Source: Limosilactobacillus oris (GTDB taxonomy: Bacteria; Bacillota; Bacilli; Lactobacillales; Lactobacillaceae). From it: a stretch of DNA of 64,000 nt. The stretch lies in the NCBI RefSeq assembly GCF_025311495.1, contig NZ_CP104398.1:868001-932000 (forward strand), read 5' to 3'. This document shows, piece after piece, positions 24,296-30,126 of the stretch. A program made the position numbers and the translations under genes. Below the pieces are notes generated by a model. That model made no database searches, was not told where the DNA came from, and was given only the letters and a program-made list of their open reading frames with translations. How positions within the stretch are numbered: the first letter of the stretch is position 1; each line of letters starts with the position of its first letter.

Positions 24296-25146
24296 CAGTC
24301 CGTTCCCCCTTTCAGCCGGGGTGCCAGGACCTTCGCTAGCTGGTCAAGGGTCAGCACTGCCGGCAAGTCGACGCCCCGCTTCCGCAGCTGATGAGCAATC
24401 TGAACCGCGGCCGGCCGGTTCAGCTGGTTAGCCGCCATGAGCTGGCTATCAGCAAACAGTTGCTCCGGGGTAGTCGCGGTCACCAGCTGTCCGTGGTTCA
24501 TTACGACCACCTGGTCGGCATAGCGCGCCACCTGTTCCATCTGGTGGGTAATCAAGATAATCGTCCGGCCTTCCTGGTGGAACGTGGCAATTAAGTTCAA
24601 TAACTGCTCCGTTGACTGGGCATCTAATCCCGCCGTCGGTTCGTCCAGGATCAGGACCTCCGGCTGCATTGCCAGAACCCCGGCAATCGCTACCCGCCGC
24701 ATCTGGCCTCCGGAGAGCATAAACGGTGACCGTTCCGCCAGGTCCGCGGGCAGGCCAACCGCGTTCAGCGCTTCCTGAACGGCTGTAGCCACCTGTTCCT
24801 GATCCCAGCCAAGGTTTTCTGGACCAAAGGCGATATCCTTAGCGACAGTTTCTGCAAATAATTGCTGCTCCGGGAACTGAAAGACGAAGCCCACGTGCTG
24901 GCGAAGTTTAGCCAGGTCCTGGCGCCGAGCGCTTGCATCAACAGTCTGTTTCCCTACCGTGATCTGCCCCGCCGTCGGTTTCAGTAGGCCGTCAATCAAG
25001 GACACGAGTGTTGATTTACCGCTACCAGTATGACCTACCAAGGCGGTATAGCTCCCTGCCGGAATTGTCAGGTTAACTTCCGTCAAAGCACGCTGCTTAC
25101 TATTGGAATACTCAAAGGCGACGTTATTTAGCTTAATTTCCGGCAT
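24295..25146 (-). CDS. ecfA2: ECF transporter ATPase EcfA2
   Basis: A 283-residue ABC ATPase powering the shared ECF module. Walker A GHTGSGKSTLVSLIDG, Q-loop FVFQFPEQQLFAETV, signature LSGGQMRRVAIAG and Walker B VLILDEPTAGLD are intact. The C-terminal extension is the ECF type. I choose the ATG at 25146 (MPEIKLNNVAFEY), with GGTGG 7 nt upstream inside ecfA1; another ATG two codons earlier sits too close to it. The overlap with ecfA1 is 19 nt. Confidence 0.94.
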   Translation of the reverse strand: MPEIKLNNVAFEYSNSKQRALTEVNLTIPAGSYTALVGHTGSGKSTLVSLIDGLLKPTAGQITVGKQTVDASARRQDLAKLRQHVGFVFQFPEQQLFAETVAKDIAFGPENLGWDQEQVATAVQEALNAVGLPADLAERSPFMLSGGQMRRVAIAGVLAMQPEVLILDEPTAGLDAQSTEQLLNLIATFHQEGRTIILITHQMEQVARYADQVVVMNHGQLVTATTPEQLFADSQLMAANQLNRPAAVQIAHQLRKRGVDLPAVLTLDQLAKVLAPRLKGGTD

Positions 25147-25955
25147 AACCATTCCACCATTTCGTTTGTTGTTAAGTACCCCGCTGGAACAGCGACTCCC
25201 AGGGCAGCCAGCCGTTCGCTCAGGTCTTGAGCCACGGGAATACCGACTCCCAGACGGTGCAGCAAATCGGCTTGGCAGAGAATCTCGCCGGCCGGGCCTT
25301 CATCAGCAATTCCCTGCTGGTCAACCACCACGATTTTATCGGCCATCGTCATTTCCACCGGATCATGGGTAATTGTAATAATAGTCAGTGACTCCTCCTG
25401 CCGCAACTGGGCCAGGAGATTTAGCACGGTCTGCCGGCCAGCCGGGTCGAGCATTGAAGTGGCCTCGTCCAGGATAATCACCTGGGGTTCTAAGGCGAGA
25501 ATCCCGGCAATCGCCACTCGCTGTTTCTGTCCCCCAGAGAGGAGGCTCGGTTCGGTATCCGCTAGCTGACTCATCCCTACCCGGGCCAGGGCCTTGTCAA
25601 TCCGTCTGGTCATCTCGTCCCGTGGCAGTTGCTGGTTTTCAAGCCCAAAGGCAATGTCATCGGCGACCGTCGCCCCAACAAACTGGTTATCGGGATTTTG
25701 AAAAACGATCCCCACTTGACGGTGGAGCGTCGTTAAGTGGTCTTCGGTCACAGTCAGGCCGTTGACGACGACCTGCCCCTCATCAGCCACCAGCAGCCCA
25801 TCGATCAGCCGGGCAATGGTACTCTTCCCGCTCCCGTTTTTACCAATCAGGGTCGTCCATTGCCCCCGGGGAAGCTGGAGGTTGAGCTTTTTGAGCACCG
25901 GTTGGCTTGCCCCCGGATATGTATACGTAATGTTTTCTAACTTGATCCCGTCCAC
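25128..25955 (-). CDS. ecfA1: ECF transporter ATPase EcfA1
   Basis: A 275-residue ABC ATPase, partner of EcfA2 and EcfT in vitamin uptake. Walker A GKNGSGKSTIARLIDG, Q-loop FQNPDNQFVGATV, signature LSGGQKQRVAIAG, Walker B VIILDEATSMLD and the His switch ITHDPVEM are present. GTG start at 25955 with AAAGGAA upstream. In related genomes it usually follows rplQ; here the gad locus intervenes, and a new or residual promoter near 25988 must drive it. Confidence 0.94.
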   Translation of the reverse strand: MDGIKLENITYTYPGASQPVLKKLNLQLPRGQWTTLIGKNGSGKSTIARLIDGLLVADEGQVVVNGLTVTEDHLTTLHRQVGIVFQNPDNQFVGATVADDIAFGLENQQLPRDEMTRRIDKALARVGMSQLADTEPSLLSGGQKQRVAIAGILALEPQVIILDEATSMLDPAGRQTVLNLLAQLRQEESLTIITITHDPVEMTMADKIVVVDQQGIADEGPAGEILCQADLLHRLGVGIPVAQDLSERLAALGVAVPAGYLTTNEMVEWLCRKLS

Positions 25956-25987
25956 GCCGTCGGTTCCTTTCCAAATTAATCCTCTTT

Positions 25988-25996
25988 ATTCTAACA
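25988..25996 (-). promoter_or_regulatory. extended -10 for ecfA1
   Basis: TGTTAGAAT on the minus strand about 33 nt upstream of the GTG; the -35 is poor. A local promoter is needed because rplQ is 3.8 kb away. Confidence 0.35.
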
Positions 25997-26252
25997 AAGA
26001 CCGCGCTAAGTTACAGGAATTTTGCTGGAAAAGTTAGTAAATTGGGAAATCTTTCCAAAACACCACCCGTATATTTCACTTCTCTGCCTGCTTTTAGCAA
26101 TTATTTGGGAACGATTTCTTATATATTTTCCATTCGTTATCAGGCGAAAGCAAAATCCCGTAATTAATTCTCAGCTCATATCAGGTTATTATTTGGCATT
26201 TCGCTCAATACCGGATATACCATAATCAAGGTAAACACCCCTATGTTTGGGG

Positions 26253-26286
26253 TTTTAGTTTAATAATCTTTGTGATTAAACTAAAA
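26253..26286. promoter_or_regulatory. perfect 12-bp inverted repeat upstream of gadC
   Basis: TTTTAGTTTAAT (26253-26264) and ATTAAACTAAAA (26275-26286) around a 10-base centre, starting just 26 bp before the gadC -10. It is symmetric and AT-rich, like an operator. It could also be a terminator hairpin, but no gene is transcribed into it. Confidence 0.5.
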
Positions 26287-26311
26287 GTATTATTTTGATT
26301 GTAATTGATTT

Positions 26312-26317
26312 TATAAT
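26312..26317 (+). promoter_or_regulatory. -10 box of the gadC promoter
   Basis: TATAAT 52 bp upstream of the gadC ATG. No good -35 at 17 bp (ATTATT), so activation may be needed. Confidence 0.45.
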
Positions 26318-26369
26318 AATAAAACGTGGGTAAAGTGTTTATCAAATCATAAACAGAAAGGAGAAGCTC

Positions 26370-27935
26370 ATGGATAGTAATGGCAAACAAGTCGCCCGAA
26401 ACCTAACTTTATTTGGTTTCTTTTCACTCACCGCATCAATGGTCTTGACGGTGTATGAGTACCCAACTTTTGCTACCGCCAAGCTGCACCTGGTATCCTT
26501 CCTGGTCCTTGGGGGAATCTTCTGGTTCCTGCCAGTTGCACTCTGTGCCGCCGAAATGGCAACCGTTAATGGTTGGAACCAGAATGGTGGCGGAATTTTC
26601 AACTGGGTTAAGCACACCCTTGGCGAGCGGTGGGGATTTGCGGCTATCTTCTTTCAATGGTTTCAAATCACGGTCGGTTTTATCACGATGATTTACTTCA
26701 TCTTGGGGGCATTATCATTCGTCTTCAACTGGCCGGCTCTTAACCAGGTTCCCGTCATTAAATTCTTTGGGGTCCTGATTATCTTCTGGCTCCTGACCTT
26801 TTCACAATTCGCGGGAACCAAGTACACTGCACGAATCGCCAAGTAGGGCTTTTCACTTGGGATCTTAATTCCTTCAGTAATTCTCTTTGTTTTAGCAATC
26901 TGGTACATCATCAAGGGAGGTCCCTTGCAGCTCAGCTTTTCAGCCCGGGCCTTTGTCCCTGACTTCGCTCATCTCAATACCCTGGTAGTCTTTATTTCAT
27001 TTGTCTTAGCCTACATGGGGGTCGAAGCCTCAGCTTCGCACATTAACGAATTAAAGCGGCCCAAACGGAATTATCCTTTGGCAATGTTCATCCTGGTAAT
27101 CCTCGCAATCTGTCTGGATACCTTTGGTGGCTTTACTGTCGCCGCGGTTGTCCCAGCCAAGGAAATTTCACTTAGTGCGGGGGTTGTCCAGGCCTTTAAC
27201 TACCTGCTGCTCTATATCAATCCCCAACTCGGCTGGCTGGTCAAGCTGATTGCGTTGATGATTGCCGCTGGGGTCATGGCCGAGATTAGTTCCTGGGTCA
27301 TTGGTCCTTCCCGGGGGATGTTCGCAACCGCCCAGCAGGGAATTCTTCCCCGGTGGTTCCGGAAGACCAACAAGTCGGGAGTACCAATCCCGCTAATCGT
27401 GGTCCAAGGGATCATCGTTTCAATCTGGGACGCGGTCCTGACCTTCGGGGGTGGCAGCGATAACGTTTCGTTCTTCGCCGCCATGTCGCTGACCGTGGTT
27501 ATCTACCTGGTCGGCTACCTGCTCTTCTTCATTGGCTACCTCGTCTTGATTTTCAAGATGAAGCAGCTGAAACGTACCTATAAAATCCCTGGTGGGACCT
27601 TTGGTAAGGCCGTTGTTTCAATTTGTGGATTATTAGTATCCCTCTTTGCCTTCGGTATCTCGTTCGTTCCGCCGAGCACGCTGCCAAGATCATCCGATTC
27701 CGCTTATCTGGGTGTCTTAATCATTAGCTTTATTATTGCGCTGATACTGCCATTCATCATCTACGCCTTCCACCACAAGTGGGGGCACCACCATCACAAT
27801 GATAATCCCCAGCACCTCAGTGCCCAGGATGTCATTCCAGCAGTACCACCAATTGCTCGTGGTGAGCATCACATTGTCTCAGAAGCTGTTTCAGATGAAA
27901 ACGAGACAGCAAGTAAACCTGCACATCAAAATTAG
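26370..27935 (+). pseudogene. gadC: glutamate:GABA antiporter, interrupted by an in-frame stop
   Basis: An APC-superfamily antiporter exchanging external glutamate for internal GABA in acid resistance. The frame begins with an AAAGGAG site and [20 protein letters not shown], but codon 159 is TAG (26844-26846). The same frame continues without any shift to 27935, covering the remaining membrane helices (AYMGVEASASHINELKRPKRNYP, broken here as AYMGVEAS then ASHINELKRP) and the His-rich C-terminal plug (HHKWGHHHH). Total span is 521 codons, normal for GadC. The single base change could have been from TGG, CAG or AAG. Unless suppressed, only 158 residues are made. gadB follows after 14 nt and is also broken. 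Confidence 0.9.
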
Positions 27936-27949
27936 GAGGTTATTTATTT

Positions 27950-29354
27950 ATGGCTGGATTATATGGTAAAACAGTAAAGAAAATCGTAACTTTCTCGATC
28001 CCATTTTTGGTTCCTATTCTTCGGATCACCCTCTTCCAAAGTATCAGCTGAACGAAAAGCCGGTGGAACCGCGGATTACCTACCGGATCGTTAAGGAGCA
28101 CTTCTGGATGAAGGAAACGCCCGTGAAAACCTGGCAACCTTCTGTCAGACTTATATGGAACCAAATGCAACGAAAATCATGGCCGAAACAATGGATAAAA
28201 ACGCCATTGATAAGTCAGAATACCAACGGACAGCTGAACTAGAAAACCGCTGTGTTAACATTATTGCTAACCTTTGGCACGCTCAACCCGCTGAGAACTA
28301 CATGGGGACTTCCACGGTCGGTTCTTCTGAGGCATGTATGCTTGGTGGCCTGGCAATGAAGTTTGCCTGGCGGGAACGGGCCAAGAAGCTGGGCCTGGAC
28401 ATTCACGCCCACAAGCCAAACCTGGTTATTTCTTCCGGCTACCAAGTTTGCTGGGAAAAATTTGCCACCTACTTTGACATTGAACTGCGGACCGTCGCAA
28501 TGGATGAACAGCACCAGTCGCTTAACATGGAAAAGGTAATGGACTATGTTGACGAATATACGATTGGGACCGTTGGTATCATGGGGATTACCTACACAGG
28601 CCGTTATGATAACATTGCTAAGCTAAACGACCTGGTCGAAGCCTATAATAAGACAACCCCTTACAAGGTTTACATCCACGTTGATGCCGCCTCAGCTGGT
28701 TTCTACGCACCGTTCATGGAGCCAGATATCAAGTGGGACTTCCAGCTGAAGAACGTTGTTTCCATTAATTCGTCAGGTCACAAGTACGGCCTGGTATACC
28801 CAGGGATTGGTTGGGTTCTCTGGCGCGACAAGCAGTTCTTGCCAGACAAACTGATCTTTAAGGTCAGCTATCTTGGTGGTGAACTGCCGACCATGGCAAT
28901 CAACTTCTCACGGAGTGCCTCGCAAATCATCGGTCAATACTACAACTTTGTCCGCTTCGGCTTTAATGGCTACAAGGAAATCCAAAAGCGGACCCATGAC
29001 GTTGCCGTCTACCTGTCCAGTGAAATTGCCAAATTAGGCCACTTTGAAATCGTCAATGACGGTTCCGAACTGCCAATTGTCTGCTACAAGCACAAGATTA
29101 ACGATGGCGTTGACTGGACCCTCTACGACCTGGCTGACCGTCTCCGGATGAAGGATTGGCAAGTACCAGCCTACCCACTGCCGGAAAACCTCGACAACAT
29201 CGAAGTTCAACGGATCGTCTGCCGGGCTGACCTGGGAATGAACATGGCCCACGACTTCATCGAAGATATGAAGCGGGCAATTGACGAGTTAAATAACTCG
29301 CACATTGTCAGCCACCAACGGACTGAGCTCAAGAAGTACGGCTTTACCCACTAG
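27950..29354 (+). pseudogene. gadB: glutamate decarboxylase, two frameshifts near the N-terminus
   Basis: A PLP enzyme that turns glutamate into GABA and CO2, consuming a proton. The ATG at 27950 follows AGGAGG by 10 nt and reads MAGLYGKTVKKIVTFSI, then shifts frame at the CCC of 28000-28002. The next frame gives PIFGSYSSDHPLPKYQLNEK up to EHF, then shifts again near 28104. From GNARENLATFCQTYMEP the frame is open to 29354. Each lesion fits loss of one base. Downstream, HVDAASAGFYAPF and the PLP lysine in NSSGHKYG remain. An internal ATG at 28155 would give a product lacking about 65 N-terminal residues. Confidence 0.9.
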
Positions 29355-29393
29355 TATTGAGCTGTGCCTAGCCTGATAATTTAATTCCACCTA

Positions 29394-29434
29394 CTCCCCC
29401 AAGTGACCTGATTAGTTGCTTGGGGGAGCTTTTT
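29394..29434 (+). terminator. gad locus terminator
   Basis: Perfect 10-bp stem CTCCCCCAAG (29394-29403) with its complement at 29419-29428, followed by CTTTTTGTG, 40 nt after the gadB stop. Confidence 0.9.
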
Positions 29435-29617
29435 GTGTGGGGAAGAAAGTTGGTCAAATGTTGCTTCGTCAGCTGCTGCACCATCGCCTTATTATCTTTG
29501 AAATAGCTAAAGGACCGGGGCTTCACTCCCAACTGCTGCCTGCCAACCAAAGGTCTCCTCGACTAGCAGCACGTCCGAACCCATCGCTAGTGGCCGCCAA
29601 AAAACGTTTAAAATAAA
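29435..29617. other. unexplained stretch between gad terminator and rplQ terminator
   Basis: No gene is supported. A minus-strand frame over about 29430-29545 (GRQQLGVKPRSFSYFKD) is open for roughly 40 codons but has no good start. It may be a remnant left when the gad locus arrived. Confidence 0.4.
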
Positions 29618-29714
29618 AAATCACTTACCATTGCGGCGCACGGGGTTTCCGCATTCGAGCTAGACTAGGGTTACCCCACCATCGTAACGCTCTATGCCAT
29701 CAATGATAGTGATT
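29618..29714 (-). terminator. long-stem terminator of the S10-spc-alpha operon
   Basis: AATCACTTACCATTG (29618-29632) and CAATGATAGTGATT (29701-29714) form a stem with about 13 pairs, enclosing about 68 nt with further hairpins. On the minus strand the outer stem ends GTGATTTTTTATTTT, 28 nt past rplQ. Confidence 0.75.
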
Positions 29715-29742
29715 CTTTATTACGTATTTAGTTTGTCAGTAA

Positions 29743-30126
29743 TTAGTCGACGAATTCCAAGATAACCATTGGAGCGCCGTCACCACGACGAGGCATGGTC
29801 TTCAAAATCCGCGTGTAACCACCGTTCCGATCTGCGTACTTTGGTGCAAGTTCTTCAAACAAGTGTTGAAGTGCAGATTGGATCCGAATGTCATCGCCGT
29901 CTTCCTTAACATCCGCAACAACATTACGGATAAAGGCAGCAGCCTTCCGGCGAGAAGCAAGGTCACCGTGCTTAGCAAGTGTAACCATCTTGTCAGCGGT
30001 CTTGCGAACTTCCTTTGCACGTGCTTCAGTAGTGGTAATCTGACCATTAACGATCAAATCAGTAGTTAAATCACGTAATAAAGCTTTACGTTGTGAACTT
30101 GTACGTCCTAATTTACGGTAACTCAT
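29743..30126 (-). CDS. rplQ: 50S ribosomal protein L17
   Basis: A 127-residue L17 near the exit tunnel of the large subunit, recognised by [19 protein letters not shown] and the C-terminal [19 protein letters not shown]. Last gene of the S10-spc-alpha cluster, 32 nt after rpoA. In related genomes ecfA1 comes next; here a terminator and the plus-strand gad locus intervene. Confidence 0.97.

Follow-up and report, generated by a model that had tools for sequence, protein, structure and literature searches.

Is the glutamate-dependent acid-resistance locus of this Limosilactobacillus oris strain a decayed operon, or does its apparent damage stem from faulty sequence? A sequence-only reading of the window, the whole analysed stretch of 64,000 nucleotides (positions 868,001 to 932,000 of contig NZ_CP104398.1), had proposed that gadC and gadB were both inactivated by three separate lesions, in a decay that looked recent and selective, perhaps after the loss of an acid niche. 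The genome of the window strain is a single contig of 2,007,883 bases and is 99.87% complete. We compared its gad locus with that of L. oris DSM 4864, the type strain, with relatives in the genus and with published cases.

Lesions in gadC and gadB

The gadC-gadB pair is flanked by rplQ and ecfA1, both of which are on the opposite strand (window 25128-30126; names assigned by inspection), and its features are collected in Table 1. In gadC, the in-frame TAG at codon 159 had been described from the letters alone, in a frame that is otherwise open. It was confirmed by both the read-through translation and the alignment to the type strain, the latter identifying the stop as a substitution, and the frame following it is open as far as the normal stop. 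The two halves of the protein match TIGR00910 with 262.6 and 485.2 bits, and the cut-off of 673.5 bits, which applies to the whole protein, is not reached in one frame. The GadC of DSM 4864 is whole (521 aa) and exceeds this cut-off with 772.7 bits.

Table 1. Features of the gadC-gadB locus, in window coordinates
Feature	Position	Strand	Basis or remark
gadC (glutamate/GABA antiporter) pseudogene with in-frame stop	26370..27935	+	Read-through of frame 1: single internal stop
In-frame TAG, gadC codon 159	26844..26846	+	The type strain and the other aligned relatives have a sense codon here
gadB (glutamate decarboxylase) pseudogene; two frame shifts close to the start	27950..29354	+	ORF list and type-strain alignment
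First one-base gadB shift, in a short homopolymer, no C-run	27963..27969	+	Alignment places it at about 27967
Second one-base gadB shift, beside a substitution, outside any C-run	28096..28102	+	Alignment places it at about 28099
Open gadB remainder, 399 aa, without the first 69 residues	28155..29354	+	ORF, profile match and alignment
Terminator-like stem-loop of 14 pairs, 3' of gadB	29394..29428	+	Pattern match only; 7 sites found vs 4.6 expected from shuffles

In gadB, the two one-base shifts that had been proposed are both real, but the first lies near 27.97 kb, about 30 bases earlier than the 28.00 kb given for it. Both precede codon 60, and the frame from the start codon is interrupted. 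The open remainder still belongs to the glutamate decarboxylase (GAD) family, with 578.6 bits against TIGR01788 (cut-off 380.4), as compared to 661.6 bits for the whole GadB of DSM 4864 (468 aa). Since the remainder still exceeds the curated GAD cut-off, a profile match alone would hide the loss.

Comparison with the type strain

In DSM 4864, gadC and gadB occupy the same site, in the same order and on the same strand, and their proteins are 98-99% identical to those of the window strain, but both frames are whole there. The comparison, of one strain with one conspecific, thus reveals disabling lesions in both gadC and gadB relative to intact orthologs in the same species, the hallmark of pseudogenes. 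Among 22 loci compared for their placement (21 found relatives and locus L065, with flanks of at most 6 kb for most), the type-strain locus alone shares the position flanked by rplQ and ecfA. Between the two strains, the identity is 99% for the gadB remainder, 98.3% over 13.2 kb of the surrounding DNA and 97.4% over 167,510 aligned bases more widely, which places the window strain in L. oris. In the 414-base region upstream of gadC, the divergence from the type strain is 5%, and a 26-base stretch is missing there in the window, an observation from which we draw no inference.

In the open part of gadB, all five replacements (codons at 28224, 28497, 28569, 28695 and 29154) are derived on the window side, as the type-strain residue is present in 14 of 14 relatives at four of the sites and in 13 of 14 at one. 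For gadC and the open gadB together, changes were assigned to branches mainly by the nearest relative, L003, which left five silent changes unplaceable. The window branch carries 12 replacement changes (the stop included) and 12 silent ones, as compared to 1 and 11 on the type-strain branch. Although the numbers are modest, this contrast (Fisher p 0.025; 0.027 without the stop) indicates relaxed constraint in the disabled lineage. In addition, replacements account for 16 of the 45 changed gad codons, whereas their share in the background is 15.6% (p 0.0013). By a crude estimate, with a neutral ratio of 2.5-2.9, constraint would have been relaxed over about one third of the window branch, which speaks against a loss during laboratory culture. 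With the type strain intact and the window lineage apparently relaxed for that long, the description of the decay as recent holds within the species.

Sequencing error or decay

To place the gad lesions against a background, we surveyed type-strain ORFs from 788,977 fetched bases. Mid-gene lesions were found in the window strain for 19 of 510 testable ORFs of at least 100 aa, many of the short ones among which may not be genes. Among the ORFs of at least 200 aa (367 testable of 466), seven were flagged: gadB, gadC, a methyltransferase, a surface protein, a GntP-like permease, a GshA-like ligase (names by inspection) and one more, which was dropped because its flag lies ahead of a later in-frame start. 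Outside gad, four mid-gene lesions fall in 446,112 bases, giving 0.027 expected per 2,985 bases, the length of the gad stretch. The probability of three or more lesions in this stretch is then 3e-6, or 5e-4 after multiplication by 149 stretches of equal size. Since the survey omits the first tenth of each gene, where one gadB shift sits, the like-for-like count is two, and two or more lesions have a probability of 3.5e-4, which becomes a borderline 0.05 after the same multiplication. In the converse direction, the fetched type-strain sequence shows damage in the counterparts of 11 of 506 window-strain ORFs.

Three of the flagged genes, which are methyltransferase-like, GntP-like and GshA-like by inspection (747180-747865, 1073332-1074594 and 1337606-1338946 in the window-strain genome), are whole in the type strain and carry a shift or a stop in the window strain.

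These data bear on whether sequencing or assembly error could have created the two shifts, and possibly also the stop, in a working operon. The gadB lesions are indeed both single-base losses, the first of them in a short homopolymer, and the sequence-only reading had allowed for errors in runs of C. However, neither shift lies in such a run, and outside gadB only one plain one-base mid-gene shift, that of the methyltransferase, was found among the 367 testable ORFs of at least 200 aa. The gadC stop is a substitution, and the nearby replacements at conserved sites would need a second explanation. Given the clustering of the lesions, the derived replacements at conserved sites and the nature of the stop, we consider error highly improbable. 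The gadC-gadB pair is, very likely, a real strain-level pair of pseudogenes that arose by ordinary gene decay, a conclusion drawn for one strain against one conspecific.

Back-up copies and residual function

A further question is whether the broken genes could be rescued or replaced. The window-strain genome contains a single GAD gene (one PF00282 match) and a single close GadC (one match to the front part of the protein). Two other matches to the rear part of GadC, among the matches listed, are 21% and 25% identical and are not close copies. No CTA anticodon, as required for an amber suppressor, was found among the 61 tRNA genes detected (61 places in an Rfam tRNA search, with ARAGORN run on 21 loci covering them).

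The gadB remainder might nevertheless be translated from the ATG at 28155 as a short decarboxylase, or the gadC stop might be read through. The open frame of 399 aa starts with an ATG, holds most of the domain, exceeds the GAD cut-off and keeps what we take to be the lysine-bearing motif. A short decarboxylase would, however, lack the first 69 residues, among them, by alignment, a Thr-Phe pair that has a role in substrate binding in E. coli GadB, and would carry the five replacements at conserved sites. Reading through the stop is opposed by the failure to find a suppressor among the tRNA genes. Residual function of either kind seems highly improbable, although a trace of activity of the gadB remainder is conceivable.

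With the lesions in both genes, no amber-suppressor tRNA found and no second gadB or gadC found, the glutamate arm of acid resistance is very probably dead in the window strain, which upholds the proposal that the whole locus has been inactivated. We envisage that upkeep of the operon ceased after the lineage had split from that of the type strain, that gadC acquired a stop and gadB two frame shifts, and that, with selection relaxed, the remaining parts of both genes drifted. The predicted outcome would be the absence of both glutamate-for-GABA exchange via GadC and glutamate decarboxylation. As for the cause, drift or a lost need would fit equally well as the loss of an acid niche that had been suggested. 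The finding implies that conspecific Limosilactobacillus strains can be entirely different with respect to a GABA and acid-survival system, and with the window strain and DSM 4864 a suitable pair is at hand to test the worth of such systems.

Damaged gad genes in relatives and in the literature

A GadB relative is present in 14 of 50 genomes of the genus, the window strain's own included. Damaged copies occur elsewhere in Limosilactobacillus: gadB is rearranged in genome G034 (L065), a second gadB and a gadC with stops are found in G008 (L045), and a gadC is split in G037 (C1:582199-584320). A gadC shift is also present in G022 (L018), but since this genome is only 75% complete, it may be an assembly fault. 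These copies resemble the L. oris case in that gadB or gadC is interrupted by stops, split or rearranged, but the lesions themselves are other ones. The distribution of gad in the genus is patchy, and the genes have been damaged there more than once. Outside it, the gadB of Secundilactobacillus paracollinoides (L019:5795-7196) aligns to the L. oris protein in three frames and may be shifted too.

A published parallel is provided by the classical Brucella species, in which gadB, gadC and/or glsA are reported to carry frame shifts and stops, together with loss of the acid-resistance trait (PMC5695133). The two cases share the kinds of lesion and the existence of intact relatives, but Brucella is an unrelated genus of pathogens in which the trait was measured, whereas the L. 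oris case is known from sequence alone. For the GAD genes of lactic acid bacteria, gene loss has been inferred in a study that states that it excluded pseudogenes (PMC9909107). A study on L. reuteri 100-23 reports that deletion of gadB removes GABA formation as well as a 100-fold benefit from glutamate at pH 2.5 (PMC3231934), and in a study on L. reuteri lineages gadB, three glutaminases and urease are among the genes whose distribution is shown (PMC10010030). A further paper contributes general GAD background only (PMC7037312). We recognised no description of a gad pseudogene in L. oris in the open-access literature searched. With its parallels in Brucella and in the damaged gad genes of related lactobacilli, the decay of gadC-gadB is genuine but ordinary pseudogene formation.

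Other acid-defence systems of the strain

The type strain has two glutaminases, one of which is intact in both strains. The second (C56:42176-43105 in the type-strain genome, G028) has lost 92 bases and carries a one-base shift in the window strain (1455711-1456547; L091). In the type strain, a putrescine-ornithine antiporter gene adjoins an ornithine decarboxylase gene (potE-speF; contig C37; L088:6228-9779). Only end pieces of this pair are left in the window strain (657408-660438; L140 and L141). The antiporter ORF is kept over its first 619 bases and the decarboxylase only in its last part, and between the two pieces lie about 1.8 kb of other genes, including acetyltransferase-like and ribose-5-phosphate isomerase-like ORFs by inspection. 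A PF01276 search detected no decarboxylase in the window-strain genome. Arginine deiminase, urease and agmatine deiminase had no match in the genome of either strain. Calling the decay selective is correct only in part: most comparable genes are intact, but the second glutaminase, the ornithine pair and a few unrelated genes are damaged as well.

The gad decay could be part of a wider, niche-driven surrender of amino-acid-dependent acid resistance, a doubtful reading that would add to ordinary gene decay as the best explanation. It draws on the state of the second glutaminase and of potE-speF: of the four further acid-defence genes, the two glutaminases and this pair, three are lost, whereas among 378 background genes of which at least a part is present the number lost is 10 (p 0.0001). 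When wholly absent genes are also counted as lost, however, the background rises to 92 of 461, and p becomes 0.028 by gene and 0.11 by locus. Moreover, one glutaminase is intact, a single strain is concerned, and the families were picked after gad had been seen, which makes the wider loss a lead and not a proof. It is conceivable, if somewhat unlikely, that the glutamate, glutamine-feeding and ornithine arms have been given up almost whole by separate mutations. This wider loss, rather than the pseudogene pair itself, is worth a second look; if true, the window strain and the intact type strain would constitute a natural test of the worth of these systems in the host.
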